Positions 4,929 through 23,021 of a stretch of 43,116 nucleotides of DNA are shown piece after piece. Position numbers and translations under genes: made by a program. The DNA is from Deltaproteobacteria bacterium (GTDB taxonomy: Bacteria; Myxococcota_A; UBA9042; PHBI01). The notes under the pieces are model-generated. The model searched no databases, was not told the origin of the DNA, and saw only the letters and a program-made list of their open reading frames with translations. The number at the start of each line of letters is the position of its first letter. Position 1 is the first letter of the stretch. The stretch covers positions 1 through 43,116 of the forward strand of contig SBGO01000561.1 in NCBI GenBank assembly GCA_006226565.1, read 5' to 3'.

Positions 4929-7736
4929 CTACTCCGAACGGACGCCACCGTCTTCGTCTTCTGGCTCGACTTCGTGGTCAGGCGTCGGCGGCTCGGTGAC
5001 CACCGACTCGAACCGAGCGAACAGCGGAACCAGAACCTCGGCGTCCACCGCGGCGTAGGCGAGCTGAGAGGCGGTCAGCGGGCGTGCAAGCCAGTTCGAT
5101 TTCTGCTCGCGCTTGTTCAAGCGAATCCCGAGCTCGCGTGCGCAGACCGCCGCCAGTCCATGTCCACCGGTCGCACCCGGGCGCGCGGCCCGGGCGGCGG
5201 TTTGCGTGTCGAAGACGCCGTCGAGCACAAAGCCGTACCGCCCGAAGACGTCGCGCTCGAACGCCGCGTTGTGGATCGCCTTGGTGATGTTCGGCGACGC
5301 CAGCATCGGCGCGAGCGGTGAAAGGTCGGCGATGACGAGCGGATCGATGACGTAGGTACGCTCCCCCGTCGCCAGTTGAATGAGGCACAGCTCCCGACTG
5401 AAGAGCGTGGTCTCTACGTCCAAGCCGACGATGCGCTGCGTGAGCAGGTCGGCCACGGCCGCAGTCAGGGCCGCGTCGCTGTCCACCCATACGACCGGCC
5501 GCGACGGCTCGAATGCGCCGGCGACCTCAACTCCCGAGACGTCATCCGCGGCAGGAGCCTCCGCGAGCTCTCCGAGCGCCGCGAGCAACATCGGCGGGAG
5601 CCGTCTTCGGTCGACCTCGGTGCGCGGTCGGCCTGCCGCGAACTCTCGCGCCCCGTCGACATCGAGCAGATAGGTCGCGACGACCTCACGCTCGATCCAG
5701 GTCGGCATCAGGCTCTGGAACTTGCTCAGGCGGAAGGCCGGTAGCCCCTCCGCGATCTCACGCCACAGCTGCTCGTCGCCCCACGGCTCCGGCGACGCGA
5801 GGCGCGCGATGACGGCCCGAACGCCGAGCAGGCTCAGCTCGTCATCACCTCGGAACACCAACCGGAGGTTGTCCGCGGCGACCTTCCACGGCGTCCCGAG
5901 TGCGTCGATCGCTCGCTTCAAGGTGACGTTGATACGACCGCCTGCGAAGGTCCACCACCTCACCTCGCCGCCGAGCTCCTCGAGCCCGTCCCCCTCGGGG
6001 TGAACGACCTCGGCGACCTCGGCCCTGCGGTCGGCGAGCGCGACGCGGGCCTCGCGCCCGAGCCAGGACGGCTCCGCGTCAGAAGCAAGGACGACCTTCA
6101 TCTGCTGGCAGAGCTCGTAGCCGAGAAACTGCGGCGTCATCCCGCCCCAACTCGGCTGACGCCCACGCGGCGCCGGCGACACCTTCACGCGCCGCAGCTT
6201 GTGATCGATCTCGTCCACGACCCACGCGCGCCCGCCGAGGAGGAAGCTGCTCACCTCGTCGACCAGGCGATCGACGAAGTCCTGGCTCAGCGTGCCGACC
6301 GGACGATCGCCCGGCGCGCGCACGTCGTAGCTCTTTGGGCTCGAGAAGACCGCGTAGAGCTCCATGAAATTGCGCCGCCCGAAGCGCTTCTCGGCCTCCC
6401 GTCCCACGACGAGCCGGCCGCTCGCCTCATACAGCGCTTCGGTCTCGACGAGGTGCGTGACGAGGCGCTCGTACTCTGCTCGACGAATGCCCCGGAAGTC
6501 CGGTACGCGCGCCAACCGACGCCACGCCGACTCCCGCGTCACCCCCTCCTCCGCCAGTGCGAGCGCGAGCAGCTGATGCACGAGCACGGGCCAACAACGG
6601 TCCGTGATCGCGACCTCCTCGACCCACCCCTCGCGCGCAAGCTCTACCAGCGCGACCGCTTGCACCAAGGCGTCGACGGACTCGCAGAAGAAGGTCGTGT
6701 TGGCCACCTGACCCGCGCGTCGCCCGGTTCGACCCATTCGCTGCAGGAATGACCCGACCGTGTCCGGCGCGTCCGACTGGAGCACGCGGTCCAAGTCTCC
6801 GACGTCGATCCCGAGCTCCAACGTCGAGGTGCAGACGATGCATGCCGCGCCCCCTCCATGGAAACGCTCCTCGGCGAGCTCGCGCTCCTCCTTCGAGACC
6901 GCGCTGTGGTGGACGAACACCTCGACGTCTGCCCGCCCCACGTGCTCGGCCACCAACTCCGTCGCGGCGCGGCTCTGGCAGAAGAAGAGGCTCTTCCCAC
7001 CGCGCGCCATGCGTGCCGCGCGCCGCGCGAGCCCCTCGATGGATGGCTCGTAGAGCGCGAGAAGCTCCCGCTGTGATCGCCCCTTCGGCGGATCGACGAT
7101 CACGCCGTCCCGCGCCGACGAGCCGCCGAGCCAGCCGAGGATGGCGTCGGGGTTGCCGACGGTCGCGCTCAGCCCGACCCGCTGCACGTCGTGCCGCGAC
7201 AAGGCCGCCAACCGCTCGATCACGCTCATCATGTGCGCGCCGCGGTCGGTGCCGGCGAGGGCGTGGATCTCATCGACGATGACCACCCGGAGGTCGCCGA
7301 ACAGCGCTCGCGTGTCGACTCGCGGCGACATGAGCATCACCTCGAGCGACTCCGGCGTGGTCATCAGGACCGTCGCCGGTTCGGCCAAGAAGCGCTTGCG
7401 CGGAGCCGCCGACACGTCCCCGTGCCAGACGAAACGGGTCAGGCCGACCATCTCGGTGTACTGACCGAGCCGTCGCGCCTGGTTGTTGAGCAGCGCCTTG
7501 ATCGGCGCGAGGTAGATCGCCCCGACGCCCGCCGGCTCATCGTCGAGCAGCGCGGACAGCGTCGGGAACAGCGCCGCCTCGGTCTTTCCCCCGGCCGTCG
7601 GCGCCAGGATCACGGCGTTCTTGCCGTCGAGGAGCGCGTTCCCCGCCTCGTCCTGGACGGGACGCAGACTGGTCCACCCCAACCTCGCGACGATGGCCTC
7701 GCGGAGACGCGGGGCGAACCTCGGGAAGACGCTCAC
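4929..7736 (-). CDS. brxHI: BREX helicase BrxHI with C-terminal RNase D-like exonuclease
   Basis: This is a 935-residue SF2 helicase of the Lhr-like group. It has Walker A APTAGGKT (residues 45-52), a DEIH box near 155, motif III GLSATVG, and motif VI QRMGRTGRR near 330. From about residue 745 to the end there is a DEDD-type 3'-5' exonuclease domain: D-x-E in GLDVETT, the second Asp in AAFERDVF, and Y-x3-D in LAYAAVDAEVL. The start is GTG at 7736, overlapping the brxD stop by 4 bases; an in-frame TTG is one codon upstream. The 3'-terminal place in pglZ-brxD-brxHI matches type 6 and type 2 BREX, where BrxHI is the accessory helicase. The fused nuclease would couple unwinding to 3'-end trimming. 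That is an inference from the domains. Confidence 0.85.
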   Translation of the reverse strand: MSVFPRFAPRLREAIVARLGWTSLRPVQDEAGNALLDGKNAVILAPTAGGKTEAALFPTLSALLDDEPAGVGAIYLAPIKALLNNQARRLGQYTEMVGLTRFVWHGDVSAAPRKRFLAEPATVLMTTPESLEVMLMSPRVDTRALFGDLRVVIVDEIHALAGTDRGAHMMSVIERLAALSRHDVQRVGLSATVGNPDAILGWLGGSSARDGVIVDPPKGRSQRELLALYEPSIEGLARRAARMARGGKSLFFCQSRAATELVAEHVGRADVEVFVHHSAVSKEERELAEERFHGGGAACIVCTSTLELGIDVGDLDRVLQSDAPDTVGSFLQRMGRTGRRAGQVANTTFFCESVDALVQAVALVELAREGWVEEVAITDRCWPVLVHQLLALALAEEGVTRESAWRRLARVPDFRGIRRAEYERLVTHLVETEALYEASGRLVVGREAEKRFGRRNFMELYAVFSSPKSYDVRAPGDRPVGTLSQDFVDRLVDEVSSFLLGGRAWVVDEIDHKLRRVKVSPAPRGRQPSWGGMTPQFLGYELCQQMKVVLASDAEPSWLGREARVALADRRAEVAEVVHPEGDGLEELGGEVRWWTFAGGRINVTLKRAIDALGTPWKVAADNLRLVFRGDDELSLLGVRAVIARLASPEPWGDEQLWREIAEGLPAFRLSKFQSLMPTWIEREVVATYLLDVDGAREFAAGRPRTEVDRRRLPPMLLAALGELAEAPAADDVSGVEVAGAFEPSRPVVWVDSDAALTAAVADLLTQRIVGLDVETTLFSRELCLIQLATGERTYVIDPLVIADLSPLAPMLASPNITKAIHNAAFERDVFGRYGFVLDGVFDTQTAARAARPGATGGHGLAAVCARELGIRLNKREQKSNWLARPLTASQLAYAAVDAEVLVPLFARFESVVTEPPTPDHEVEPEDEDGGVRSE

Positions 7737-9055
7737 CAATCTTCGAGGACCGGCACGTCGCCGCCGTCGTCATCGTCTGTGTCGGCCGGAGGGCGGCCGA
7801 GCGCCACTTCCTCCTCGCTGGTCAAGGCGATCGGTTCGAAGCCGAGCGCGACCATCGGATCGAACTCCTCGTGCTCGTCCACGAGGTCGAGCACGTTGAC
7901 CAGCTTCCGCAGGAACTGCCGCGGCACGACGCCGACGTCCCTGGCAAACCCCTCGGTGACCGCCTGAACGAGCTGCTCGATGAAGTGCGGCGGCACGCGG
8001 TCGACCAACCGCTCGCGCTCCTCTGCCGGGTAGAGGTCGCGGAGCCTCAGCGCGACTTGCTTGAGACGCTCATCGTTGAAGGGGCGGAGCTCGAGCTGAG
8101 GCTGACGCAGGTTCACGAAGTCCCCGTGCGTCTCGAAGCGGATTCGCTCATGGAGCGGCGCGAGCCCACCGACGCCGCGACGCCCGTCGAAGAAGTCCGG
8201 CGTACCGGTGAACACCCAGAGAAGTCCAGGGTACGACCCTGCGGCGTCGTAGATCTGCCGGATCCCGTTCAACGACTTGTGACGCGTGTCCTGCCGCATC
8301 CGAAGGATCGTCTCGGCCTCGTCGATGACGATGACGAGCCCCTTGTAGCCGGCCGCCTTGACGATCTCGAGGGCGCCGCGGAGGTAGTCGAGCGCCGCGC
8401 GACTCTCGATGTCGCCCTTCACACCCGCGAGCTTCTTCGCCTGCGCAGCGACGTTTCCACTGCCCGAGAGCCACGAGAGTAGCGCCCCGGCTTCGGCCAG
8501 CCCGCCGTCCTGCTTCAATCGAAAGATCGTCTGCACGACTCGGACGAAGTCCGCCGGCGCCTTCCCCCCCATCTTGAGGTTCAGCTCTTCGTCGAGGCGC
8601 TCGTGGACGCGCTCGTCGAAGTCTGCGCCGTCGGGATCGACGCCCTCGTCCTCGAGCTGCATCTCGACCCGGCCGATCCACCGGTCGAGCACGTCACCCA
8701 GGGCGCCACGCGGGCAGGTCGCGGTGCCGAGCTCGCCCATGACCTTGCGGTACACGTCGTCAAAACGATGGAAGCGCAGGTCGTTGTCGGACACGACGAC
8801 GAAGCTCGTCGCGAAGCCACGCGCTTGGGCCTCGAGCAGCACGAGCCGCGCCATGAACGTCTTGCCGCAGCCGTACCCGCCGCGGAGGAACTTCACCACG
8901 CCCTCGCCGCGCTCCGCGAGGTCGAGCTGCCGCCCGAGCTCGCGCCTCTCGCGCTCGATCCCCACGGCGAACGCGTCGAGCCCGCGCTCCGGGACGGCGC
9001 CGCCCCGCAACTTCTCGAAAATGTGCTCGCGGTCACGCACCGTCAGCGTGCTCAT
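7733..9055 (-). CDS. brxD: BREX ATP-binding protein BrxD
   Basis: The 440-residue protein has a P-loop GGYGCGKTF (about 59-67) and a Walker B VIVIDEAETIL (about 238-248), the pattern of the DUF2791/BrxD family of AAA-like ATPases that accompany the BrxHI helicase. The ATG at 9055 overlaps the pglZ stop by 4 bases, and its own stop overlaps the brxHI start by 4 bases, so pglZ-brxD-brxHI is a tightly coupled unit. It probably acts as an ATP-dependent adaptor or loader in the cytoplasm. Its exact role in BREX is not established. All expected ATPase motifs are intact. Confidence 0.9.
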   Translation of the reverse strand: MSTLTVRDREHIFEKLRGGAVPERGLDAFAVGIERERRELGRQLDLAERGEGVVKFLRGGYGCGKTFMARLVLLEAQARGFATSFVVVSDNDLRFHRFDDVYRKVMGELGTATCPRGALGDVLDRWIGRVEMQLEDEGVDPDGADFDERVHERLDEELNLKMGGKAPADFVRVVQTIFRLKQDGGLAEAGALLSWLSGSGNVAAQAKKLAGVKGDIESRAALDYLRGALEIVKAAGYKGLVIVIDEAETILRMRQDTRHKSLNGIRQIYDAAGSYPGLLWVFTGTPDFFDGRRGVGGLAPLHERIRFETHGDFVNLRQPQLELRPFNDERLKQVALRLRDLYPAEERERLVDRVPPHFIEQLVQAVTEGFARDVGVVPRQFLRKLVNVLDLVDEHEEFDPMVALGFEPIALTSEEEVALGRPPADTDDDDGGDVPVLEDW

Positions 9056-11895
9056 CCGCCGCCTCCCTCGCGCACGTAGCGCTTCTTGCCTCCGGTCATG
9101 TCGACGCGCACACCAAAGGGCGCGAGCGCCGCGTGCCGCTCTACGCTCGCCGCGAAACGGCGCGCACTCCGCGGTGAGCCGAGGATTCGAGTCAGCGTCG
9201 CCTCGTCGACATCGCCGTGAGCGGCCAGGAGCTCGAAGACCTTGCGGATCCCCGCGTCTTCGAATCCGTCGAGCCAGTCATCGGTGGCCGGGAGCGACTC
9301 GTTCGCCCGCCGCTCCTCGAGCGCCGATCGGACCGGGAACCGCTGCGGAGGGGTCGCCGGCTCGACCTGGACCTGACCGCGCTGATGCGCGAGGCGCACC
9401 TGTACGCGCCGGTCCGACGGCCCGACCAGCTCGAACCGCACCACGAACCTCGCCCCGATGCGCACCACGGCCGTTCCTTCGACCAGGCGCGCCCCTGGGC
9501 CTTCGACCGCGCGCACGAGCGCTGACACGCCGGGCGCGCCAACCGGCTCCAGATCGAGCTCGACCGATGGAGCTCCGCCAAAGGGTAGTCCCTGCTGGGC
9601 GATCGCCTCGACGACGCCGGCCAGCGCCATCTCACCAGGGGTGTCGACGGGCTCGAGGGCGATCCTGTATCCCGCGCTCCGGCTCCCCGCCGCGGTCCGA
9701 TGTTGCACCGTCAGCACCGGGATCACGCGCTCCTGCAGAGACGCTCCCCCGTGCACGAACGGCGTCGGGCGATCGCCCGGGTCGAAGATCGCCAGGCCCG
9801 CGGGCATCACGAGCTGCTGGTCACCGTCGACCGCGTATTCGAGCGCGGCCAGTGGGACCCGCAGCTCTCCGTCGTGATCGACCGAGATGCGCTCCATCGC
9901 CCAGCGCAACGGCGCATCGCCCTTGAGGCCACGCCGCTGTCGGGTCACCTCGCGCCGATCGAGGAGCAGGAAGCCGTGGTCGGCGACGAAGACGAAACGC
10001 AACACGCCGGCCTCGCGGAGGCGCCGCCACGCGCCCTCGAGCTTGCGCAGGACACGCTCGAAGGCGTCATAGCCGGCGCCGGCGTGCCCCGCCTCGTCGA
10101 TCTCCTTGGAGTGGACCACGACGAGGCGCGCCTGGGCGATCCGCCGCCGCAGCCGCTCGGCCTCATCATCGAGCACATCGTCGAGCCGGAGCCACGGGCA
10201 GGTGTCGCCGCCGACGCGCTCCTGCATCGTCCGTCGTCGGTCGTCCGGTCGCGTGACCTGCAGCTCGGCGCTGTAGAAGCCCTCGATCTCCTTCTCACCG
10301 CGGAGGACCGGCCGCAACGGCGCGCCGCGCCACACCGGAGCCAACGCGTTCATCCCCACCGAAGAGATCGTCGGCAGCTCGGCGAGGCGCGCATCGAGCC
10401 GCGCGTGGGTCCCCGGGGACGCCGCCAGAGTCTCACGGAGCGCCTGACCCAGCTCGAAGCGGAGAGCGTCGACCACGAAGAGCGCGACGCGCTCGCCGTC
10501 GTCCAGCAGGGGCCGGACCACGTCGTCGAAGATCCGGCGCTGCTGGAGCTCAGGCTCGGGAAGGAACCCCCCACGCCGACAGGTCGCGTCCCAGGTGGCG
10601 CCTGTGTCGATGGCCCAGGCGCGGTACGCCTCGCGCAGGTCCTCGACGACCTGTCGCACGCGATCGTAGCCCCACACCCGGCCGGGGTAGAGCCCGACCG
10701 CGACGGTCTGCTCCAGCTCCCGCCGCGCGCGGTCCACCGTCGCGCCGCGGGTCGCGTACCACGCGACGCCCGCGCTGAGGCCGTCGAGCCCCTGCCGAGG
10801 GACGCGGTTGTCACCGATCGCGCGCCCGAGCCTGGCCGCGGCGTCCACGAGCTCCCACGCCGCCCGGCGCGCCGGGTCCCGGCGGACCCAGAAGGCGTCG
10901 TCGCGACGTCGCACGGTGGCCCATTCGAGCGCGCGGTCCCACTCGAGCTCGCTCAGCGCCTGGAGTGCCGCGTCGAAGATGGCGTCGGTCTCGAACGCGA
11001 AGGTGTCGATCTGCCCCAGATCCTCGGGATCTTGCTTCCGTCGCTCCTCATCGAGCAGTTGCGCCTCGACCTCGTCTGCAAGCGCGACGTAGCGGTCGGG
11101 GTCGTCCCGCCGGAGCGCCGCCGCGAGCCCCCCGCACGCCTTCACGAGCGGCGCGGCGAGCTTGGTCAGCGGCTGGAGCGTCGCCTGACGCGGCGCCCGG
11201 GTCTTGCGCAGGTCGTGGACATACTCGACCGCGAGGGCCCAGCTCACCGCCGCGAACCCGACGTCCCGCCGCGAACGCTCCGACGGCTTCACCGCCGCAT
11301 ACCATGCGTCGGACACCCCGAGCGTGCTCGCGAAGTGGGCCTCGAGCACCGCCGCGTCGAGCGCCAGCGCCTCGTCGCCGTCCAGGAGCCGGCTGACGAT
11401 GCCAACGGGTTCTTGTCTCCGTAGCTCCTCGAGCTCGGGCGAGCCGCCGCCCGCCCGGTCGGCGAGCCAGGCGTCGGCCGCGGCGAGGTCGACGTCCGGG
11501 CGCTCGAGGAAGGCGCGCACGTCGTCTGCCGGCACGAGCCCGGCCGCCGCGTCTTTCACCAACGTGTCCAGCCCCCGTTGGAGCTCCGTCCCTATCGCCG
11601 CGATCTCGAGCAACGGCGTGTCCCGCAGGTCCTCTCGCAGAAAACCGGGCAGGTAGAGGACCAGCGGCTCGGGGTCGGCGCCGTCTACCCGCCCGTCGAG
11701 CGTCTCGATGACCTCCAGGAAGCTGCCCCGGAACGGCACGACGGGAAGTGCCGCCGTGTCCTTTCGTCCGGCCAGCTCGTGGGCGAACGCCTCGTACTGA
11801 CGGTGCCGGTCCAGCCAGACCACGACGCCGTTCCGGCGAACGGCGTCGCGGAGCTGGCCTTCGAGTGCTTCGGAGACGGGTTTGAGCGTGCTCAT
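9052..11895 (-). CDS. pglZ: BREX alkaline-phosphatase-superfamily protein PglZ
   Basis: The 947-residue PglZ is a core BREX protein. The metallo-phosphatase fold is visible in the last half: FVVDALR (about 468-474, metal-binding Asp), TISSVGM (about 500, nucleophile region), VVVHSKEIDEAGHAG (about 592) and FVADHGF (about 632, Asp-His metal ligands). The ATG at 11895 (MSTLKPVSEALE) was chosen because the 57 codons upstream look non-coding. Its length and its place before brxD fit type 6 BREX. It begins 67 bases after the beta-CASP gene and is separated from pglX by about 15.6 kb, which is unusual, since pglZ normally follows pglX directly. Confidence 0.9.
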   Translation of the reverse strand: MSTLKPVSEALEGQLRDAVRRNGVVVWLDRHRQYEAFAHELAGRKDTAALPVVPFRGSFLEVIETLDGRVDGADPEPLVLYLPGFLREDLRDTPLLEIAAIGTELQRGLDTLVKDAAAGLVPADDVRAFLERPDVDLAAADAWLADRAGGGSPELEELRRQEPVGIVSRLLDGDEALALDAAVLEAHFASTLGVSDAWYAAVKPSERSRRDVGFAAVSWALAVEYVHDLRKTRAPRQATLQPLTKLAAPLVKACGGLAAALRRDDPDRYVALADEVEAQLLDEERRKQDPEDLGQIDTFAFETDAIFDAALQALSELEWDRALEWATVRRRDDAFWVRRDPARRAAWELVDAAARLGRAIGDNRVPRQGLDGLSAGVAWYATRGATVDRARRELEQTVAVGLYPGRVWGYDRVRQVVEDLREAYRAWAIDTGATWDATCRRGGFLPEPELQQRRIFDDVVRPLLDDGERVALFVVDALRFELGQALRETLAASPGTHARLDARLAELPTISSVGMNALAPVWRGAPLRPVLRGEKEIEGFYSAELQVTRPDDRRRTMQERVGGDTCPWLRLDDVLDDEAERLRRRIAQARLVVVHSKEIDEAGHAGAGYDAFERVLRKLEGAWRRLREAGVLRFVFVADHGFLLLDRREVTRQRRGLKGDAPLRWAMERISVDHDGELRVPLAALEYAVDGDQQLVMPAGLAIFDPGDRPTPFVHGGASLQERVIPVLTVQHRTAAGSRSAGYRIALEPVDTPGEMALAGVVEAIAQQGLPFGGAPSVELDLEPVGAPGVSALVRAVEGPGARLVEGTAVVRIGARFVVRFELVGPSDRRVQVRLAHQRGQVQVEPATPPQRFPVRSALEERRANESLPATDDWLDGFEDAGIRKVFELLAAHGDVDEATLTRILGSPRSARRFAASVERHAALAPFGVRVDMTGGKKRYVREGGGG

Positions 11896-11962: not shown

Positions 11963-13738
11963 CTAGAGCCGATGCTCGATCTCCTCGATCCGGTCGAGGA
12001 CGTCCCGCAACAACTGCCGCATCTCGGGCAGGCAGGCGACCGCGTCGACCAGGATGCGTAGGTCACCGGCGGTGATGACCGCCGGGCTCGCCTCCGGCTC
12101 GAGGCCCAGCGCGGTCGCCGCCGAGACCTCGTCGCCCGACTCCAGGTCCAGCGCCACGTCGTCAGTCATCGGCATACGCACCTCGATCTCGCCGAGCCCG
12201 AGCTCGTGTGACCGCTCCCGCAGGCGCTCGGCGAGCTTTGCGCGGGCCACGTCGTTGCCGTGCGTCAGAATGACCCGCCCTCCCGCCTGCCTCACCGTCC
12301 CGTTGTGGTTCGGGAACAGCCAGTCGACCAGCCCCGCCTGGTCGGCGTGCGCCGAGTAGCCCCATAGCGACTCGACCCGCGCCCGAAGATCCCGGAGCCG
12401 GAACGGGGCGTCCCCGACGAGGACCTCGCGGCTGAGACGGGCCCTCTGGTCGGGCACGAGGGCGCCGACCTGCTGGAGCGCGCCGCCGAGGGTGCAGGGG
12501 GAGCAGTATCCGCTGAGGAGCACGGTGGCCTCGGGGCGATGGAGGTGACCGGCCAGCCACGAGACGACCGGACCTCCCTCGCACATCCCTCCGCTCGCGA
12601 CGACGACCTTCGCTCCGCCGGCTTCGACGAGCGCGTCACGCTCCTCCCAGGGGACCGGACGCCACGCGGGCAGGAAGCGTAGGAAGACCCCTTCGTCTTT
12701 CGGGTGCGGCGGCTGCGGCCGCGGAGAGTCGGTGAATATGGCCGCGAGGCGCACCTGCAGCCGTCGGATGTGGTCGGTGTCATCGGGATCGAGCCCGAGA
12801 TCGCGGAACGTCCCCTTCCCGAGCCACGCGAGGCGCACCTTGCCGCTCGAAGAGACGAAGTCCCGCTGCGCCGCCTTGCCGACGATGCGGTTGATCTTCA
12901 GCCCCATCGGCGCGTCGACGAGGAGCGTCTCGGGGTCGAGGTCGAGCTCCCCGCGCGCGACGAGGAGGTGAAGGTCGTACAGCACGTCCTGGAGACGCTG
13001 CACCGCGAACACCGGGATGATGACGGGCCCGCCGCGCTCGAGGCCCTCGCGGACCAGCGCAGCCAGCCGCTTCCGGCGGAGCTCGCCGTCCAGCTGCTCG
13101 GGGCTCCGACGCCGATCGCCGTAGGTCGACTCCATGACGACCCAATCGGCGGGGCGCGACGGGAGCATCCGATGGCCCAGGAGCGGCTGCACGGCGACCT
13201 CGCGGGTGTTGTTGCCGATGTCACCGCTGAACACGATGCGGCGCTCACGGTCGGGATCCGATGGCGAGGTCTTGATGATCTCCACCGACACGGCGCCGAC
13301 GATGTGGGCCGAGCGGTGGAAGAGGGCCAGCAGGTTCTTCGCGAGGACGAGCGGCTTGGCGAAGAGCTTGCGGTCCGGGTGCCGCCACTTGATGCGGTCC
13401 ACCCACCGCGGGTCGTAGCGCTCGCTCCACCGGGCCGCGTCCGCGAGCACCACCTTCGCCACCTCCGCGGTCTCCCGCGTGCAGTACACCGGGCCCACGA
13501 AGCCGTCCGCGTACAGGTCGGGGATGCGCCCGCAGTGGTCGAGGTGACCGTGGGTCAGGACGACGCAGTGGATGCGGCGCGGGTCGAAGGGGAAGGGCTC
13601 GCGGTTCTTCGCGTCGGGGTCGGGACCATCCTGGTGCTCGCCGCAGTCGACGAGGACGCGGATGTCCGCCTCCTCGTCGTGCAGCAGGTAGCAGGACCCG
13701 GTGACCTTGCCGAGCGGACCGAGGGATACGAGCTTCAT
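11963..13738 (-). CDS. Metallo-beta-lactamase / beta-CASP ribonuclease-like protein
   Basis: The 591-residue protein carries the zinc-binding signature THGHLDH (62-68), a further Asp in FSGDIGNNT, the beta-CASP segment (MESTYGDRRR, PVFAVQRLQDVL), and RMMBL motifs SGGMCEGGP, GYSAHAD and LTHGN. This is the architecture of CPSF73-like/RNase J-like RNA nucleases. It is longer than the usual 450-470 residues because of an acidic C-terminal extension of about 100 residues. The ATG at 13738 has AGGAG eight bases upstream. Its promoter region carries a 35-base element shared with the GRDP gene. It lies 67 bases upstream of pglZ on the same strand and could be co-transcribed with it. Substrate (RNA or other) is unproven. 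Confidence 0.8.
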   Translation of the reverse strand: MKLVSLGPLGKVTGSCYLLHDEEADIRVLVDCGEHQDGPDPDAKNREPFPFDPRRIHCVVLTHGHLDHCGRIPDLYADGFVGPVYCTRETAEVAKVVLADAARWSERYDPRWVDRIKWRHPDRKLFAKPLVLAKNLLALFHRSAHIVGAVSVEIIKTSPSDPDRERRIVFSGDIGNNTREVAVQPLLGHRMLPSRPADWVVMESTYGDRRRSPEQLDGELRRKRLAALVREGLERGGPVIIPVFAVQRLQDVLYDLHLLVARGELDLDPETLLVDAPMGLKINRIVGKAAQRDFVSSSGKVRLAWLGKGTFRDLGLDPDDTDHIRRLQVRLAAIFTDSPRPQPPHPKDEGVFLRFLPAWRPVPWEERDALVEAGGAKVVVASGGMCEGGPVVSWLAGHLHRPEATVLLSGYCSPCTLGGALQQVGALVPDQRARLSREVLVGDAPFRLRDLRARVESLWGYSAHADQAGLVDWLFPNHNGTVRQAGGRVILTHGNDVARAKLAERLRERSHELGLGEIEVRMPMTDDVALDLESGDEVSAATALGLEPEASPAVITAGDLRILVDAVACLPEMRQLLRDVLDRIEEIEHRL

Positions 13739-13780
13739 CGGGGCTTCTCCTGGGCGCGGCGCGGGCTCCGTGCCCGCGCA

Positions 13781-13815
13781 CACCCTCCCCACTCGCGAGG
13801 CTCGATTTCGTGACA
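13781..13815 (-). promoter_or_regulatory. Shared 35-base promoter/operator element, copy 1
   Basis: This stretch upstream of the beta-CASP gene matches 16900-16934 at 27 of 35 bases. On the minus strand it reads TGTCACGAA, a variable spacer, then TCGCGAGTGG and a G-rich run. TCACGA-N9-TCGCGA is a near inverted repeat, and the second copy is a perfect one. An A-rich tract lies just upstream in both copies. It ends 42 bases before the start codon. It may be an ECF-type promoter or a dyad operator; which one is not decided by sequence. Confidence 0.6.
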
Positions 13816-13833
13816 GGGCGAGCGACGTTTTTT

Positions 13834-15117
13834 TCAGTCGGCGGCCTGATACAACGCCTGCAGGCGCTCGAGCGCCCGCTTCTTCTTCTGCCGCGCGCCC
13901 GCCTCGGTGATGCCGAGCTCCTCGGCGATCTCCGCGTAGGAGTAGCCCTCGACGAAGAGGCGCAGCACGAAGTGGTCCTCGGCGCTCAACCTCCTCCAAC
14001 CCCGCTGCAAGTCGATTCCCGCCTCAGTACGGCGAAACCCGGCACCACAGTCGATAGCCCCATCCGTCACGGTCGCGTCGAGCGTGCTCGGGTCCACGCC
14101 GGGCTCGCGACCGGTGACCCTGCAGGCGGTGAGGGCCGTGTTCGTCAACGACTTCCAGAAGTACTTCACGAGGTCCTTGACCGGCGCCTTCACGTGGCGC
14201 TCGCACACCTTGACGAGGGTGTCCATGGCGATGTCGTACGCGTCGGCGGCGCGCTTGAACACACGGCTCACCCTGTGCATCGCCGCGGTGAAGACGGCCT
14301 CGCGCTTCCCTCTCGTGCGGTAGAGCGTCTCAGCGCACTCGTCGAAGGCCGTGCTGGCTCGTGAGGACCGCCTTGGGGCAACCGCCGCTGCCGCGACGAC
14401 GCGGAGCTCCCGCAGATCGTCGTCCACCTCTCCCGGCGGCGCGGGGAACGGCGAGACGTCGTCAAGGCGTGTATCCGTGACGCCCGCCGCCCCCGCCCCG
14501 AGCAGGAGCTGACCGCCGGCGAGACCGACGACCAGGGCGAGCCCGCCGACGCTTGCCGCCACGCGTCGGTCCCCCCAACCGCGCCGCAACGCGAACCAGA
14601 TCCCGCGTCCGAGCAAGTAGAGGAACGTGACCGGCAGGACCAGCCTCCAGAGCCACGCCGCGCCGAGGAGCACGAGCGTCGTGAGCCCATCGGGCGCGTC
14701 GTAGCTCCCGCGCATGTCGGGGATGACGAGCACGACGAAGCCGAGCGCGTAGGCCCCGATCAACGCGACGAGGGGCAGCATGGGCCCGGGACGTTGCCGG
14801 AGACGCCTCCACCCGCACCACAGGAGCACGACGCCGGTGACGATGAGGGTGAACCAATAGCTCACCTCGAAGGTCCCGGGGTCGAGGCCGTCGGTGCGCT
14901 CGAGCGCCGCCGCGGTCAGGAGCGTGACGACCGAGGACGAGCCCCACCACGCGGCGAACAGCGCCGGGAAGGCGCCCACTATCGCGCCGAGCAGCAGCGC
15001 GACCACGAGCGCCGAGCGCGCGAACCAGCCGGGCGTGCGCACCGGGGTCGGCGCGACTGGCTCGGGTACGGGTTCCGGCGGCTGAGGGGTAGGGCTCGGA
15101 GCGACCTCGTCCGTCAT
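13834..15117 (-). CDS. Membrane protein fused to an ECF-sigma-like domain
   Basis: The 427-residue protein starts at ATG 15117 (a GTG lies directly before it; GGAG is eight bases upstream). After a proline-rich cytoplasmic-like start there are about five or six hydrophobic helices (roughly residues 30-52, 90-107, 118-135, 150-175 and 190-212). The C-terminal half resembles an ECF sigma factor: a region 2-like helix (AYDIAMDTLVKVCERH) and a region 4 helix-turn-helix (SYAEIAEELGITEAGARQKK, about 395-415). Sigma factors are normally soluble and held by separate membrane anti-sigma proteins. Here the anchor and sigma parts share one chain. Two of its neighbours share a promoter-like element, so it may regulate them. 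Confidence 0.7.
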   Translation of the reverse strand: MTDEVAPSPTPQPPEPVPEPVAPTPVRTPGWFARSALVVALLLGAIVGAFPALFAAWWGSSSVVTLLTAAALERTDGLDPGTFEVSYWFTLIVTGVVLLWCGWRRLRQRPGPMLPLVALIGAYALGFVVLVIPDMRGSYDAPDGLTTLVLLGAAWLWRLVLPVTFLYLLGRGIWFALRRGWGDRRVAASVGGLALVVGLAGGQLLLGAGAAGVTDTRLDDVSPFPAPPGEVDDDLRELRVVAAAAVAPRRSSRASTAFDECAETLYRTRGKREAVFTAAMHRVSRVFKRAADAYDIAMDTLVKVCERHVKAPVKDLVKYFWKSLTNTALTACRVTGREPGVDPSTLDATVTDGAIDCGAGFRRTEAGIDLQRGWRRLSAEDHFVLRLFVEGYSYAEIAEELGITEAGARQKKKRALERLQALYQAAD

Positions 15118-15213
15118 CACAGGACTCCGGCGTCTGAGGGGTGGCTCACCAGTCTAGGCAGACGGGGCGAAATGCGCGACCATCGCTGCCCCCCGAAATC
15201 AGCGAGGTAGAAA

Positions 15214-15711
15214 GTGGAAGACCAAGCAGTACGTTGGCCGATGAGCGCAGAGGAGCTTCTCGCCGTCGTCCGCCGCGAGGACCGCCTCGGGCTCGGCGCG
15301 ACCCTCGCGGACGAGCTGTCGCTTCACCTCCCCCCATCCGAGTCGGTCCACGCCCGGCTGCGTCTCGAGCACGGTCCCGCGAGGTCCTACGGTTTCGCCA
15401 TCTCAGACAGCGACGCGCGCGCGGAGACGTGGCTCATCCTGACGGAGCGGCACCTCGTCCGAGCGCACACGTCGCAGGCCCTGCACGCCGACGGGCGTCC
15501 GACGATCGAGGTCGGATCGAGCCCCCTCGGCCGTCTCCGTGGCGTGAAGACCCGGCGCGACCCCGACGACCGCTGGCACCTCGTGCTGGACCTCGCCGGA
15601 CCAACATTCGGCGACGAGGAGGTCGAGCCCATCAGGTTCTGGGGCGAGGGCGACGGCCCCAGCCCCGAGGCCCGCGCGTTCCTGGCCGCCCTCGCCACCG
15701 TCCGACGCTAA
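15214..15711 (+). CDS. Hypothetical protein, 165 aa
   Basis: The likely start is GTG at 15214, with GAGG six to seven bases upstream; an ATG at 15241 is the alternative. The 165-residue product is soluble, with no recognised domain and a beta-rich middle (TWLILTERHLVRAHT, WHLVLDLAGPTFG). The gene is divergent from the membrane-sigma gene across a 96-base gap, so both may share a promoter region. It is convergent with the TauD-like gene: the two stop codons overlap by 4 bases (15708-15711). Third-position GC is high, like neighbouring genes. Confidence 0.6.
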   Translation: MEDQAVRWPMSAEELLAVVRREDRLGLGATLADELSLHLPPSESVHARLRLEHGPARSYGFAISDSDARAETWLILTERHLVRAHTSQALHADGRPTIEVGSSPLGRLRGVKTRRDPDDRWHLVLDLAGPTFGDEEVEPIRFWGEGDGPSPEARAFLAALATVRR

Positions 15712-16358
15712 CGCGGCCACGACTCCAGCGGCCCGATCCAACGCCGCTCGAGGTGCCTGAGGCTCTCCGGTGACACCGCGTGGCGCCCGTGCAGCACGCG
15801 GCGATTGTCGACCACCAACACGTCCCCGGGCGCGAGCCGGATGCGCGTCACCGGGGCCCGCTCGATCTCCGCCCGGAGCCGCTCGAGCGCCTCGAGCGCG
15901 GTTCCCTCGGCGTCGTGCGTCAGCCACGGCGCCCAGAAGCAGCGGCCGGACCGCGGCTCGTAGATGTGCGCCTCGCCGCTCATCCTGCCCCCGCGCAGCC
16001 TGATCTTCGCGAGCAGCTCCCGGTCCACGCGGGTCATCCCCTCGATGATCGCGCGCAGGTCGACCAGGAGGCTCGCGCCGTCTACGTCGTCCTGACGCTC
16101 ACAGCGCCACGCGATGAGCGGTACCCGCGGGTCGTCCGCGTGTAGCGGGATCGCACCAGGGCTGCACAGGTAGGAGCGAACGTCGGACGAGAGACGCACC
16201 GTGGTCGCCAGCGCAGTCCCTCCGAGCGCGTCCACCAGGGCGTCGAAGCCGGCGAGGTCGACATCCGCCAGGGTCGCGAAGCCTTCGCGGCCGAGCGCGG
16301 CCCGGACCGCGCGGGTCCGGGCCGACTCGTCGCGCACGCCAACCGTGCGCGGGCTCAC
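15708..16358 (-). CDS. TauD/TfdA-like Fe(II)/2-oxoglutarate dioxygenase
   Basis: The 216-residue protein has the cupin-type Fe(II) ligands of the TauD/TfdA family: H-x-D in IPLHADDPR (about residue 100) and a distal His in VLHGRHAV (about 192), followed by an Arg-rich 2-oxoglutarate-binding stretch (HLERRWIG). It is shorter than typical TauD proteins (about 280). It starts at GTG 16358, overlapping the stop of the upstream GRDP-like gene by 4 bases. The two are therefore translationally coupled. The substrate is unknown. The tight pairing raises the possibility that it hydroxylates its small partner protein, but that is speculation. Confidence 0.75.
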   Translation of the reverse strand: MSPRTVGVRDESARTRAVRAALGREGFATLADVDLAGFDALVDALGGTALATTVRLSSDVRSYLCSPGAIPLHADDPRVPLIAWRCERQDDVDGASLLVDLRAIIEGMTRVDRELLAKIRLRGGRMSGEAHIYEPRSGRCFWAPWLTHDAEGTALEALERLRAEIERAPVTRIRLAPGDVLVVDNRRVLHGRHAVSPESLRHLERRWIGPLESWPR

Positions 16359-16840
16359 GTGGCGACCATGTCCAGGAGCGGATCCTGGATCGACTTGCAG
16401 GCGTGCCAGCAGCGCCCCTGGCAGTCGTGCCAGCACTTCGTGGCCGACTCCTCCGCACGGGTCACGTAGGGCTCGCCGTACGCCTCCAGCCAGAAGGCCT
16501 CCGTGCGGCGGAAGACCCGCTCGAGGACCGGCGCCTCGTCGGGCGCCTTCCCGAAGCCGCCGTCGTGGTCGAGGAGCCCGCCGAAGAGCCGCTCGCAGTC
16601 CGCGTGGTAGGCGACGGGCTTGAGCATGTGCAGGTGCCAGATCATGTCGATGTCACGGGTCGGCGCCATCGCCAGGCCCGGGTGACGCCGCACGAGCCCC
16701 AGGAACCGCAGGTAGCGCACCACCTGGTGCTCCAGCTCCGCGTCGGTCAGCGCGGCGTCGAAGTCGTCGGAGCGTCGGGCGGCGGCGACGAGGTCGACGC
16801 TGATCTCCACGGCGGGGGCGAGGTGAGGGTGCTCGGTCAT
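16355..16840 (-). CDS. Small GRDP/DUF1399-like protein with CWHxC repeat tail
   Basis: The 161-residue protein contains DIDMIWHLHMLKPVAYHADC (about residues 62-81), the core motif of bacterial glycine-rich-domain (DUF1399-like) proteins. Unlike many relatives it has no glycine-rich tail. It ends instead with a tandem CWHDC-QGR-CWHAC unit (about residues 136-148) followed by a short tail. The ATG at 16840 has GGAG eight bases upstream. Its upstream region carries the 35-base element also found before the beta-CASP gene. It is the first gene of a two-gene unit with the TauD-like oxygenase. The Cys/His repeat could bind metal or be modified; neither is shown. Confidence 0.7.
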   Translation of the reverse strand: MTEHPHLAPAVEISVDLVAAARRSDDFDAALTDAELEHQVVRYLRFLGLVRRHPGLAMAPTRDIDMIWHLHMLKPVAYHADCERLFGGLLDHDGGFGKAPDEAPVLERVFRRTEAFWLEAYGEPYVTRAEESATKCWHDCQGRCWHACKSIQDPLLDMVAT

Positions 16841-16899
16841 GTCACGTCTCCAGGTCGAGGCTCCGAAGAGCCGGTTGAGCGAGCAACCGGGTAGCTGCT

Positions 16900-16934
16900 C
16901 ACCCCCTCCACTCACGACCGCCGAATTCGTGACA
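16900..16934 (-). promoter_or_regulatory. Shared 35-base promoter/operator element, copy 2
   Basis: This element matches copy 1 (13781-13815) at 27 of 35 positions. It contains a perfect inverted repeat TCACGA-N9-TCGTGA on the minus strand, inside TGTCACGAATTCG and TCGTGAGTGG. The downstream edge is 59 bases before the GRDP-like start codon. The strong conservation next to an AT-rich upstream tract argues for a regulatory function common to both genes. Confidence 0.6.
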
Positions 16935-17047
16935 CGCCAAGCTCACTTTTCTGTGAAGACGATAGCGAAGTCCGAGCTGCGGACCGGAGGCGACGCTCTC
17001 TCCGAGGCGGTTTCCGACCGGGCGGTGAGCTGCTAACCTCACGCCTG

Positions 17048-17075: not shown

Positions 17076-17093
17076 GTCGCAAAGGAACGCGTG

Positions 17094-20000
17094 ATGACCG
17101 CTCAGCTCGGATTTCAGTGTGACTACACGCCCCGCGTGAACTTCGCTCTCCAGCAGAACGACATCCCGGTCATCCGGCTCTTGAGAGTCGACAACCTCAC
17201 CGACGCCCGGGTCGAAGACATCGAGCTGCGCGTCAGCGCCGACCCCATGGTCTTCGAGCCGTGGACCACCCGCATCGCCGCGATCGACGCGCACGCGACG
17301 TACAACCTGCGCTCGCTACCCCTGGCGCTGTCGGCGGACCGACTGGCCGCGCAGACGGAGAGCGAGGCGGGTCGGATCCGGGTCGACGCGTTCGTCGCAG
17401 GCGCGCCCGCCGGCAGCATCGACCTCGACTTCGAGATCCTCGCCTTCAACCAATGGAGCGGCCTGCGCTCGCTCCCCGAGCTGCTCGCCGCCTTCGTCCT
17501 ACCGAACCAGCCGGCCATCGAGACCGTGCTGAAGGTTGCGCGACGACACCTCGAGCGCCTCGTCGGCGACCCGAGCTTCAACGGCTACCAGGAGCGCAGC
17601 CGCCAGCGCGTGGTGGCGATGTCGGCCGCCATCTACGGGGCGATCCAGGACCTGGGCATCACCTACGTCAACCCGCCCGCGAGCTTCGAGCAAGAGGGTC
17701 AGAAGGTGCGCCTCCCGGATCAGCTCCTCGCGAGCCAGATGGGGACCTGCCTCGACCTGACGGTCCTGCTCGCGGCGTGCCTCGAGCAGGCCGGGCTCAA
17801 CCCCTTCGTGAACGTGGTCGAGGGCCACGCCTTCCCCGGCGTCTGGCTCGACGACTTCTCCCTCCCCGAGCCGTCGATCTCCGATCCGACGGCCGTCCGC
17901 AAGCGCGTCGACGGCGAGGAGGCCCTCGTCTTCGACTCGTCGGCCGCGGCGATGAAGGCCGACTTCCGGCACGCGACCGCGGTCGCGCGACGCGCGCTCG
18001 AGGACACCGACAAGTTCATCTGCGCGGTCGACATCCGGCGCGCCCGCGTCGCGAAGATCCGTCCGCTCCCCGTTCGCCGCACGGAGCTGGGCTGGCAAGC
18101 CATCCCCGACGCGGTCCCGGACTCCCCACCTCCGCTCCCGGCGTCGAGCATCCCGCAGCTCCACCTCCCCGCCGAAGACGCCCGGTCCACCGCCGAGACC
18201 ACGCGCACGCGGCTCGACCGCTGGAAGGGCAAGCTCCTCGACCTCTCGCTGCGAAACCGCCTGCTCAACGTCCGCTTCAGCCTCAAGTCGATCATCCCGC
18301 TCGAGAGCGCCGATATCGGCGTCCTCGAAGACGTCCTCGCCGGCGGGGCGAAGCTCGCGTTGCTCCCTCGCCCTGACGAGCGCGAGGTCTTCGGTCCCCG
18401 GAGCAGTCAGCTCCTGGAACAGCGGGTCAACGAAGACCCCATGCGGACGTTCCTCGCCGACGCACTCGATAGACGTCGGCTGCACGCCGACCTGGCCCCC
18501 GCGGACCTGCAGAGCCGCCTGACGAAGCTCCATCGCGACTCTCGCACCGCGCTCGAGGAGACCGGCTCGAATACGCTCTACCTCGCGCTCGGGTTCCTCT
18601 CGTGGTTCGAGGCCGACAACTCCGAGACGGAGCGCTTCGCGCCGCTCGTCCTCCTGCCCGTCGCGCTCCACCGCGGCTCGGCTCACGAGGCCTACCGCGT
18701 GAGCGTCACCGACGATGACCCGCGCATCAACGTCACCTTGCTCAAGAAGCTCGAGACCGAGTTCGGCGTCGACGTCCGCGGTCTCGACGAGATGCCCGAG
18801 GACGACGCCGGGCTCGACATCACGCTGATCCTCAACCGCTTCCGCAAAGCCGTGATGACCATCCCGCGGTGGGAGGTGAAGGCGATCGCGGCGATCGGTG
18901 AGTTCTCCTTCGCCAAGTACCTGATGTGGACCGACCTCGAGGACCGCACCCAGACGCTGCTGGCGAACTCCCTGTTCGAGCACATCATGAACGGCAAGGG
19001 TGCGCCGTACCCGCTCGAGCGCCCCTTCGCCTCACCGGAGTCCATCGACGCCGAGCGCTCGGTTCACGACGATCTCTGCGTCGTCGACGCAGACTCCTCC
19101 CAGCTCGCCGCGGTCTTCGCCGCAAAGGACGGCAACAGCTTCGTCCTGCAAGGCCCGCCGGGCACCGGGAAGTCGCAGACCATCACCAACCTCGTCGCGC
19201 AGCTCGTCGGTGACGGCAAGACCGTCCTCTTCGTCTCCGAGAAGATGGCCGCCCTCGAGGTCGTCCACCGGCGCCTCAAGCTCGCGGGCGTCGGCGAGTT
19301 CTGTCTCGAGCTCCACTCCAACAAGTCCAATAAGACCGAGGTCATCAGGCAACTCGCCGCGCCCTTCGAGCTCGCCGGCAAGAGGAACCACAGCGAGTGG
19401 GCCCTCCGCGCCGACGAGCTCCGCGACCTCCGGGCGTCCCTCAACCACTTCGCGGAGGCGCTGCACGGCCCCGGCCCCTACGGCGCTTCGGTCTTTGGGG
19501 CCGCGTCGATGGTCCTGAAGCACGCGTCCGCGCCCGTGGTCCCGCTCGCCCTCGACCCACCTCGGAGCGTCACCCCCGACCGCATCAACGGGCTCCGTAA
19601 ACGCCTCGAGGCCGTGGAGGTCGCCGCCCGCGACGTCGGCGACCCGGCCACCCACGCCTGGCGCGGCGTGCCGATCGGCGGCTGGACCCCACACGCCGAG
19701 CGCACGATCACCGCCGCGCTCGACGCCGCCATCGAGCACGCGCGGACCGTACACGAGACCGCCCCCCTGGCCGCTCAGGCGTTGGCGCTGAACCTACCGG
19801 CGATGACGGACGCCGTCCTGACCCGGCTCGACCGGGCTTCGTCCGTCCTGGCGACCTCGCCGGGCCCCCCGCGCGAGATGCTCGACGCCCAGAACTGGTC
19901 CCTCGAGCGCCAGCGCGCCGAGAGCCTCGCGAAGACCGTGCAGGACCGCCGGGCGACGTGGTCCGACGTGGACGAGCACTTCGCCCCCGGGATCCTCGCG

Positions 20001-23000
20001 ATGGACCTGACCGAGCTCAACGCGAGGTTCGGCAAGTGGGCCAACGCCATCTTCCTGATCGCCTTCTTCATGCTCTGGAGCGCTCGCCGCTCGCTCAAGC
20101 GGGTCGCGAAGGACGGCAAGCTCCCCTCCAACTCGGACACCCTCGAAGACCTCCAGCGGGCCGTCACCGTCCAAGAGCGCGACGAGACCATCGCGCGCCA
20201 GGACGCCGCCGCCCGGAGCTTCCTCGGCCCGTTCTGGGAGGGCCTCGACACCGACTGGGACGCCATCGACGCGATGTTCCGCTGGGCCGAAGCCTACCGC
20301 GCCCTGACCCTCGACCTCGGCGACGACATGGCCGGCGGCGCCCTCCTCGCCGGTCGCGAGGGTCGCGAGCGCCTCCTCTCCCTCGCGACCGAGGAGCGGT
20401 CGCTCCTCGCCGCCGGGAGCCCCCGAGGCGACGCGATCCGGCGCTTTCACGAGGCATGGTCGTCGTACCGCTTGGCGCGAGCCACCCTCGTACAGCAGCT
20501 CCGCCTCAACGCCAGCGGCAATCGGCACGGCGCCGTGCTGACCGACCTGCCGCTCGCCACGGCACAACTTCGTACCTGGCGCGGCGCCATCCGCGAGCTG
20601 CGCGATTGGTGCGCCTGGCGCGACACGATCGACCTCGCCGGTACCGACGGCGCGGTCACGGACCTCCTCGCGCGGCACGCCGACGGCGCGCTCCCGGGCT
20701 CGCTGCTGATGGCGGCCTTCGAGCGCGGGTTGGCGACGTGGTGGATCGACGAGGCCGTCAGCACCGTCCCCGCGCTGCGCGAGTTCCGCGGCACCGCCCA
20801 GGACGCGCGGATCGAGCGCTTCCGAGCGCTGGACCTCGAGATGCAGGCCATCGCGCGCGAGGAGGTCCGCTCCCGGCTCGCCACCCGCCTCCCGGCGATC
20901 AACGGCCCCGGCGAGGTCGCGCTCCTGCGCGGCGAGCTGAAGAAGCAGCGGCGTCACATGCCGATCCGCAAGCTCTTCTCGCGGATCCCCCACACGCTGA
21001 TGAAGCTCAAGCCCTGCGTCCTGATGAGCCCGCTGTCGGTCGCACAGTACCTGGACCCGGCGCTGTCGCTCTTCGACGTGATCGTGTTCGACGAGGCTTC
21101 GCAGATCCCCCCCTGGGATGCCATCGGGGCCATCGCGCGCGGCCGCCAGATGGTCGTCGTCGGTGACAGTAAGCAGCTCCCGCCCACGAACTTCTTCCAG
21201 AAGGCCGACGACGACACCCCGCCCGACGACGACGACATGGAAGAGCTCGAGAGCATCCTCGACGAGTGCGTCCGCGCCGGGTTCGTCTCCCACTCGCTGA
21301 AGTGGCACTACCGGAGCCGCCACGAGTCGCTGATCGCGTTCAGTAACCACCACTACTACGACAACCGCCTCCACATCTTCCCCGCCGCCGACTCCGACGT
21401 CCCGGCGCTCGGCGTGAAGTGGCGCCACGTCCCCAAGGGCTTCTACGACAAGGGAAAGTCCCGCACGAACCAAGCCGAAGCGGAAGCCGTCGTCGCCGAG
21501 ATCGCGCGCCGCCTGAGCGACCCCGCGCAGTCGCACAAGAGCATCGGCGTCGTCACGTTCAGCCAGGCCCAGCAGACCCTCATCCTCGACCTGCTCGACG
21601 AGCTCCGCCAGAAGAACGAGCGCCTCGACCCCTTCTTCACGGAGGCCGTGCCCGAGCCCGTCTTCGTCAAGAACCTCGAGAACGTCCAGGGCGACGAGCG
21701 CGACGTGATGCTCTTCAGCATCTGCTACGCGCCGGACAGGGCCGGCAAGCTCGCGATGAACTTCGGCCCGCTCAACCGGGACGGTGGCGAACGCCGCCTC
21801 AACGTCGCCATCACCCGGGCGCGCGAGCTCTTGATCGTCTTCTCCACCCTGACCCACGACCAGATCGATCTCGCGCGGACGAAGGCGCTCGGCGTCGCGC
21901 AGCTCAAGACCTTCCTCGACTACGCGCGCCGCGGGCCGCGGGCCATCGACGAGGCCGTCGCGCTCAACCCCGAGGCCGACTTCGAGAGCCCGTTCGAGGA
22001 GGCCGTCTGCAACCGCCTCCGCGCCGAGGGCTACCACGTCGACCTCCAGGTCGGCTGCGCCGGCTATCGGATCGACCTCGGCATCAAGCACCCCGACCGC
22101 CCCGGGAGCTACATGCTCGGCGTCGAGTGCGATGGCGCGACCTACCACTCGGCCCGCTCCGCGCGCGACCGCGACCGCCTCCGCCAGAGCGTCCTCGAGT
22201 CGCTCGGCTGGCGCCTCTTCCGCATCTGGTCCCTCGACTGGTGGCACGACCCCGAGCGCGTCATGACGCGCCTGCGCCAGGCGATCGAAGACGCTCGCCG
22301 CGCACCCCTGCGCGCTTCCGAGGCGACCCGCGGCCGCAACGACGCCCGCAGCAAGTCCGGCGGCGCCGCCGCCGACGGTACCCCAGAGACGGCGCCCGCA
22401 GCGGTCGACGTCGAGGCGCTCCTCGGCGCCGACGCGGCGGCGCTGACCCTGCCCGAGCACGCGGCTGACTACCGCCTGGCCGAGACCCCCATCCTCGGCC
22501 CGCGTGAGCTCTGGGACGTCACCCACATCGCGCCGCTCATCGCCGGTCGACTCATCGACGTGGTCGCGGTCGAGGGGCCAATTCACATCGACGAGGCGAC
22601 CCGCCGTGTCGGAGCCTCCTGGGGGGCCTCGAGGGCGACCAAGCGCAGCGTCGAGAAGGTTCAGGACGCGTCGAGGCTCATCGCGACGGGGGCGCGGCCC
22701 ATCGCGCGCGGCGACTACCTGTGGCCGCCGGAGCTCGACCCGACGACGTGGCGCAGCTTCCGCCTGCACCCGGACGTCGACACACGACGAGCGCCGGAAT
22801 ACCTACCCCCACAGGAGATCGCCAACGCGGCCGAATGGCTGATCTCGCAGTCCGGCTCAATCGTCCATCACGAACTCGTGCAGGAGCTTTCCCGACTCTT
22901 CGGCTACAAAGCGACGGGCAAGAAGGTCCGCGACGCCATGGCGGCGGGCATTGAGCACCTCGTGGCCGAGCGCCGAGCCGAGCTCACCGGCGACAGCCTT

Positions 23001-23021
23001 CGTCCGCTTTCGAGGGACTGA
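17094..23021 (+). CDS. DUF4011/DUF3320 SF1 helicase with Vsr-like nuclease and transglutaminase-like domain
   Basis: This 1975-residue defence-type protein has several domains. A transglutaminase-like region lies near residues 130-300 (Cys in QMGTCLDLTVL about 219, His in VEGHAFPG about 245). A DUF4011 region lies near 365-440 (LLDLSLRNRLLNVRFSL). SF1 helicase motifs are split by a long insert: Walker A QGPPGTGKSQT about 686-696, DEASQIP about 1332, GDSKQLPP about 1356, and VAITRARE about 1569. A Vsr/MTES_1575-like nuclease follows near 1630-1725 (YRIDLGI, GVECDGATYHS). A DUF3320 region lies near 1800-1862. The ATG at 17094 follows AAAGGA; a GTG is one codon upstream. Such proteins are typical of defence islands and are thought to degrade foreign nucleic acid. 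All core motifs look intact. Confidence 0.8.
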   Translation: MTAQLGFQCDYTPRVNFALQQNDIPVIRLLRVDNLTDARVEDIELRVSADPMVFEPWTTRIAAIDAHATYNLRSLPLALSADRLAAQTESEAGRIRVDAFVAGAPAGSIDLDFEILAFNQWSGLRSLPELLAAFVLPNQPAIETVLKVARRHLERLVGDPSFNGYQERSRQRVVAMSAAIYGAIQDLGITYVNPPASFEQEGQKVRLPDQLLASQMGTCLDLTVLLAACLEQAGLNPFVNVVEGHAFPGVWLDDFSLPEPSISDPTAVRKRVDGEEALVFDSSAAAMKADFRHATAVARRALEDTDKFICAVDIRRARVAKIRPLPVRRTELGWQAIPDAVPDSPPPLPASSIPQLHLPAEDARSTAETTRTRLDRWKGKLLDLSLRNRLLNVRFSLKSIIPLESADIGVLEDVLAGGAKLALLPRPDEREVFGPRSSQLLEQRVNEDPMRTFLADALDRRRLHADLAPADLQSRLTKLHRDSRTALEETGSNTLYLALGFLSWFEADNSETERFAPLVLLPVALHRGSAHEAYRVSVTDDDPRINVTLLKKLETEFGVDVRGLDEMPEDDAGLDITLILNRFRKAVMTIPRWEVKAIAAIGEFSFAKYLMWTDLEDRTQTLLANSLFEHIMNGKGAPYPLERPFASPESIDAERSVHDDLCVVDADSSQLAAVFAAKDGNSFVLQGPPGTGKSQTITNLVAQLVGDGKTVLFVSEKMAALEVVHRRLKLAGVGEFCLELHSNKSNKTEVIRQLAAPFELAGKRNHSEWALRADELRDLRASLNHFAEALHGPGPYGASVFGAASMVLKHASAPVVPLALDPPRSVTPDRINGLRKRLEAVEVAARDVGDPATHAWRGVPIGGWTPHAERTITAALDAAIEHARTVHETAPLAAQALALNLPAMTDAVLTRLDRASSVLATSPGPPREMLDAQNWSLERQRAESLAKTVQDRRATWSDVDEHFAPGILAMDLTELNARFGKWANAIFLIAFFMLWSARRSLKRVAKDGKLPSNSDTLEDLQRAVTVQERDETIARQDAAARSFLGPFWEGLDTDWDAIDAMFRWAEAYRALTLDLGDDMAGGALLAGREGRERLLSLATEERSLLAAGSPRGDAIRRFHEAWSSYRLARATLVQQLRLNASGNRHGAVLTDLPLATAQLRTWRGAIRELRDWCAWRDTIDLAGTDGAVTDLLARHADGALPGSLLMAAFERGLATWWIDEAVSTVPALREFRGTAQDARIERFRALDLEMQAIAREEVRSRLATRLPAINGPGEVALLRGELKKQRRHMPIRKLFSRIPHTLMKLKPCVLMSPLSVAQYLDPALSLFDVIVFDEASQIPPWDAIGAIARGRQMVVVGDSKQLPPTNFFQKADDDTPPDDDDMEELESILDECVRAGFVSHSLKWHYRSRHESLIAFSNHHYYDNRLHIFPAADSDVPALGVKWRHVPKGFYDKGKSRTNQAEAEAVVAEIARRLSDPAQSHKSIGVVTFSQAQQTLILDLLDELRQKNERLDPFFTEAVPEPVFVKNLENVQGDERDVMLFSICYAPDRAGKLAMNFGPLNRDGGERRLNVAITRARELLIVFSTLTHDQIDLARTKALGVAQLKTFLDYARRGPRAIDEAVALNPEADFESPFEEAVCNRLRAEGYHVDLQVGCAGYRIDLGIKHPDRPGSYMLGVECDGATYHSARSARDRDRLRQSVLESLGWRLFRIWSLDWWHDPERVMTRLRQAIEDARRAPLRASEATRGRNDARSKSGGAAADGTPETAPAAVDVEALLGADAAALTLPEHAADYRLAETPILGPRELWDVTHIAPLIAGRLIDVVAVEGPIHIDEATRRVGASWGASRATKRSVEKVQDASRLIATGARPIARGDYLWPPELDPTTWRSFRLHPDVDTRRAPEYLPPQEIANAAEWLISQSGSIVHHELVQELSRLFGYKATGKKVRDAMAAGIEHLVAERRAELTGDSLRPLSRD

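Follow-up and report, generated by a model that had tools for sequence, protein, structure and literature searches.

A predicted membrane-bound ECF sigma factor and its candidate promoters as a probable local switch for antiviral genes at a BREX type 6 locus

How bacteria turn on their defence genes only when required is, to our knowledge, largely an open question. The stretch of DNA analysed here (43,116 nucleotides, referred to as the window) carries a BREX type 6 set (brxE, brxA, brxB, brxC, pglX, pglZ, brxD and brxHI) and also a gene for an ECF-like sigma factor with a membrane domain, flanked by two similar short elements. An earlier note, made from the sequence of the window, had proposed that these elements are copies of one regulatory element that links the units on either side with the membrane sigma. 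We asked what the elements are and which genes they would serve.

Both elements are promoter-like and lie on the minus strand. Element A (13787..13815) is upstream of the gene for a beta-CASP metallo-hydrolase (11963..13738, minus strand), its predicted target, and begins at 13815, about 20 bp beyond the stop codon of the sigma gene. It is composed of TGTCAC (13815-13810), a 17-bp spacer and GTGGG (13792-13788). Element B (16906..16934) has the same layout, with TGTCAC (16934-16929), a 17-bp spacer and GTGGA (16911-16907), and is upstream of a gene pair encoding a GRDP-like protein (16355..16840, minus strand), its predicted target, and a TauD-like protein (15708..16358, minus strand), whose genes overlap. 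An A-tract precedes each element on the same strand, that of element A (13828..13834) abutting the sigma stop codon and that of element B lying at 16947..16950. The identity of 27 of 35 bases reported for the two elements was confirmed on the minus strand; the highest value among 3000 Markov-resampled pairs from the same leaders was 24. The genome-wide motif search that the earlier note called for found TGTCACGAA-N8-TCGNGAGT at only two exact sites in the 7.7-Mb genome, both in the window (none for the reversed control), and the pattern BGTCACRAA-N14-STGGR found the same two sites (control 0). The motif is thus not abundant across the genome, and a wide regulon of the strict element in this genome was ruled out. 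No sigma-70-type consensus promoters were found between 11700 and 17100. Based on the spacing, transcription would be expected to start near 13781 and 16900.

Domain and helix predictions bore out the description of the protein encoded between the elements (13834..15117, minus strand, 427 aa) as ECF-like with a membrane domain. Five membrane helices were predicted within residues 31-216, followed by sigma2 (252-335) and sigma4 (365-426). The sigma4 domain was indicated by PF08281 (E 2.5e-9), by the sigma4 helices and by PDB profile matches. The sigma2 domain was also assigned; the match to TIGR02937 (residues 281-421) scored 42.5 bits, just under the 42.9 cut-off, and among members of the family only L126 gave a Pfam region 2 match. 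The best structural match of the sigma part was SigL of M. tuberculosis, with about 180 columns aligned to 6dv9 by Foldseek. The nearest full-length homologue found had 39% identity, and the one other match in the same genome was a generic sigma-like protein (E 0.003). A scan of the window found no strong element upstream of the membrane sigma gene itself, in contrast to many ECF sigmas that are autoregulated. The constant 17-bp distance between the two blocks is what a sigma promoter would show, and the protein has both sigma2 and sigma4.

To compare loci, relatives of the sigma were gathered by protein homology first, and the DNA after each sigma stop codon was examined next. Relatives were found in 15 other genomes, and the element after their stop codons was strict, diverged or undetected. 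It was strict in the window, G108, G214, G265, G019, G008 and G293, seven loci that share a TGTCAC-like block, 17 bp and STGGR, mostly with an A-tract ahead; in the relatives the element lies 14-53 nt past the stop codon. Its form across genomes is TGTCAC(G/A)AA ... (G/C)TGG(A/G), in which the 17 bp after TGTCAC are fixed and an A-tract usually precedes. Leave-one-out scores of the 150 bp that follow each sigma stop codon, compared with about 4000 genomic stretches, gave p values of 0.0002 to 0.003 in seven genomes, window included, and weaker values in G350 (0.014) and G087 (0.064). Over the same 150 bp the strict element was not significant in G058, G352, G354, G368, G011 and G086, several of which show diverged look-alike elements by eye.

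The pattern with its A-tract, searched in 379 genomes of the phylum, presumably Myxococcota, gave nine sites at sigma loci and 18 scattered elsewhere, with nine for the reversed control (a manual tally from the result table); the pattern had been built from eight of the nine sigma-locus sites, and those eight are not independent. The one new site, in G008, is flanked by the broken relic of a membrane sigma on one side and by a TauD-GRDP gene on the other. In addition, G293, found through protein homology only, has two element sites; behind the second is a gene for a B12-binding radical SAM protein (L126:4566-6014), a possible new defence gene. Pattern matches in G112 and G048 were set aside, as the ORFs listed at these places included no apparent membrane sigma, and carriage of the family by phages or plasmids was rejected, since searches of viral contigs and of plasmids turned up no relative. 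The family includes a truncated sigma (G122) and one with an in-frame stop codon (G214). A sub-family (L127:6920-8200 and L131:6508-7767) has a TGTCCC-type look-alike element and a common 154-171-aa neighbour, the L127 copy of which had no Pfam match. The G011 sigma ORF (L129:6440-7300) has no helices, but a short ORF, MKKTLIGIATAVVAAIGGYYGF, resembling a signal anchor overlaps it in another frame; the beta-CASP frame of this genome also looks broken.

The neighbours of the sigma genes were frequently defence genes. Viperin genes lie beside the sigma in eight genomes (G008, G087, G108, G214, G352, G086, G350 and G122), and since pVip genes occur in only 32 of the 379 genomes, these eight pairings are far from chance. 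PADLOC supported the viperins of G008, G108, G214, G087 and G122 as well as viperin-type proteins in G086 and G350, and the viperin of G352 was identified by a viperin family search and a Pfam radical SAM match. In G008 the viperin gene is divergent from the sigma gene, and in G122 a beta-CASP gene lies between the truncated sigma and viperin. In G058 the sigma is part of a CBASS-like gene row, in which it follows a SAVED-domain gene and precedes a CD-NTase gene and an E1-E2 gene. TauD-GRDP proteins resembling the window pair were present in G019 and G008, and beta-CASP proteins follow the sigma in G122 and, frame-broken, in G011. Other relatives have sigma neighbours without known function. 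The recurrence of the element after sigma genes beside defence genes in other genomes supports the proposed tie between the shared element and the membrane sigma.

The perfect TCACGA-N9-TCGTGA dyad that the earlier note had observed in one copy is present, in element B only, and element A is nearly dyadic. These dyads are what might be expected if the elements were operators of a dimeric DNA-binding repressor or activator, with the sigma gene a bystander. However, the dyad is not kept in orthologous elements, where between one and all six of its pairs are conserved, and a role for it as the functional core was not supported, as its arms vary; what is kept is a pair of asymmetric blocks, always 17 bp apart, and across genomes the element tracks the sigma family. 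We consider an operator improbable and, based on the conserved blocks and their constant spacing beside variable dyad arms, we think the shared elements are best read as promoters.

A promoter could in principle serve another ECF sigma of the cell, with the membrane sigma merely adjacent. Further ECF-like sigmas are encoded in the genome, and the match between element and membrane sigma is itself deduced from sequence, but both of the genomic sites flank the membrane sigma gene and the pairing recurs across several genera, making this explanation unlikely, if marginally less so than an operator. That a 27/35 likeness with two genomic copies is fortuitous, or a relic of a duplicated leader region, is very improbable, as it beats all of the resampled pairs and homologous positions in other genomes also carry the element. 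What can be read directly from the DNA is that the elements come as a pair, that this locus is the only one in the genome to have them, that the element is conserved next to sigma genes of this family, and that defence genes lie adjacent. We assign a probability of roughly 0.8 to the reading that elements A and B are promoters of the intervening membrane ECF sigma and that this sigma works in cis, as a single protein, to switch antiviral genes on. Counting against it are the missing strong element ahead of the sigma gene itself, the relatives in which the strict element is marginal or not significant, the truncated sigma of G122 and the in-frame stop codon of that in G214, and the membrane topology described below. 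A membrane ECF switch that acts in cis and is associated with defence is in our opinion a well-supported prediction; its control of the beta-CASP and GRDP-TauD genes is likely, and the sigma probably serves to activate antiviral defence locally.

In the mechanism we propose, membrane attachment would keep the sigma domain inactive until an infection- or envelope-related event freed it to bind RNA polymerase. The freed sigma would then transcribe its immediate neighbours only, beta-CASP and GRDP-TauD, with transcription from beta-CASP perhaps continuing into pglZ-brxD-brxHI. Recognition of the element by this sigma, the trigger and the release step are the parts of this scheme that we infer.

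The topology predicted from hydropathy and charge is N-in/C-out, based on odd helix numbers and a K/R-rich loop before the last helix. This loop was present in every helix-bearing member except G058, for which the automatic segment call chose an earlier helix. Such a topology would put the sigma domain outside, across the membrane from the cytoplasm, a position for which the proposed release step does not account. The sigma parts are also rich in cysteine, with a mean of 4.6 in comparison to 0.95 in 39 ECF controls of the same phylum (a small number of which have helices too). Two of these cysteines are invariant (14/14), and the other two are jointly missing in G108. Based on the helix count, K/R-rich loops, and cysteine excess and invariance, we speculate that the protein could be an alarm for export failure: the sigma domain would normally be exported, disulfide-closed and silent, and a collapse of export or membrane potential caused by a phage or toxin would keep newly made sigma cytoplasmic and reduced, and so able to fire the adjacent defence promoters. 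We regard this model as rather unlikely.

It had also been suggested that the same control could reach the second half of the BREX system, pglZ-brxD-brxHI (4929..11895, minus strand), which would require read-through from element A. Such read-through is possible because beta-CASP and pglZ, on the same strand, are separated by a 67-bp gap in which no terminator-like site was listed. In G019, too, a second membrane-sigma unit adjoins brxD-brxHI. Against this, the beta-CASP/pglZ gap contains a TTGACA, the BREX genes of G019 are oriented away from its sigma unit, and 19 other BREX-6-type PglZ loci showed no beta-CASP gene and no copy of the element (flanks up to about 1.5 kb). The arrangement is not conserved at those loci, beta-CASP was rejected as a standard BREX-6 gene on the same comparison, and we judge control of BREX by the sigma to be possible, with the odds somewhat against it. 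The G019 unit (L062:6506-11425) comprises the membrane sigma and TauD-GRDP and faces away from brxD-brxHI and a 533-aa gene without known function; an assignment of these neighbours as Shango was discarded, as the PADLOC score was higher for BrxD/BrxHI. The window BREX has other genes inserted between pglX and pglZ, among them those for a Hhe/PDC-S37-like helicase-nuclease and an IetA-like ATPase (17091-23021, 23300-24274). In a further genome (G189:C605:218-5640), a viperin gene lies about 2 kb from a BREX-6-type pglZ.

Going by its account in PMC12288465, the closest known system is DdvS/DdvA of Myxococcus xanthus, in which an ECF sigma and a transmembrane anti-sigma control a CBASS/CRISPR-Cas island (Bernal-Bernal 2024, via PMC12288465). 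Both have a membrane-linked ECF sigma; control of an antiphage island is described for DdvS/DdvA and is here predicted from gene neighbourhood. Sigma and membrane part are two proteins in DdvS/DdvA whereas here they are fused in one. As that island is described, its genes also differ from the neighbours found here (viperin, beta-CASP, TauD-GRDP and BREX). ECF36 sigmas likewise have membrane helices ahead of the sigma domain, in N-terminal transmembrane extensions carrying DUF2275, with no defence link described (PMC8999054); in contrast, no Pfam match to DUF2275 was found in the N-terminal extension of the members scanned, the membrane sigma of the window included. IutY (ECF243) and ECF48/52/53 are also sigma-membrane fusions, and IutY is freed by regulated proteolysis, but their membrane or anti-sigma part is C-terminal (PMC8999054), whereas here the membrane part is N-terminal. 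Dedicated local control of BREX and other defence loci, similar to the role proposed here, is known from BrxR and other WYL regulators (PMC9122589, PMC9122601); BrxR is a WYL-domain transcription regulator, whereas the protein here is a sigma factor. Full-text searches of open-licence literature found no description of a fused membrane sigma with defence genes.

One membrane sigma and one promoter thus look like a compact, portable switch, found in association with various types of gene that are antiviral or may be so. The switch can flag candidates for new defence genes, such as TauD-GRDP, the beta-CASP protein and the B12-binding radical SAM protein of G293, and it makes the question of the trigger directly testable.

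The leaders between elements and start codons were also unusual in their folding, with a mean z of -2.15 for 16 leaders in comparison to -0.16 for 90 control leaders; the leader of G019 and three from G008 are represented by their first 60 nt, as their start codons were not located. When the leaders were aligned with MAFFT, the hairpins did not fall into register. In the window, a stable hairpin (13752..13785, minus strand) separates element A from the start codon of beta-CASP, and a weaker one (16877..16904, minus strand, z -1.4) separates element B from that of GRDP. These hairpins could block the ribosome site or shield the 5' end. Stable nested hairpins were also observed in the leaders of L025, L026, L029, L061, L126, L127 and L128, and the 3' arm of the hairpin often overlaps the Shine-Dalgarno sequence.
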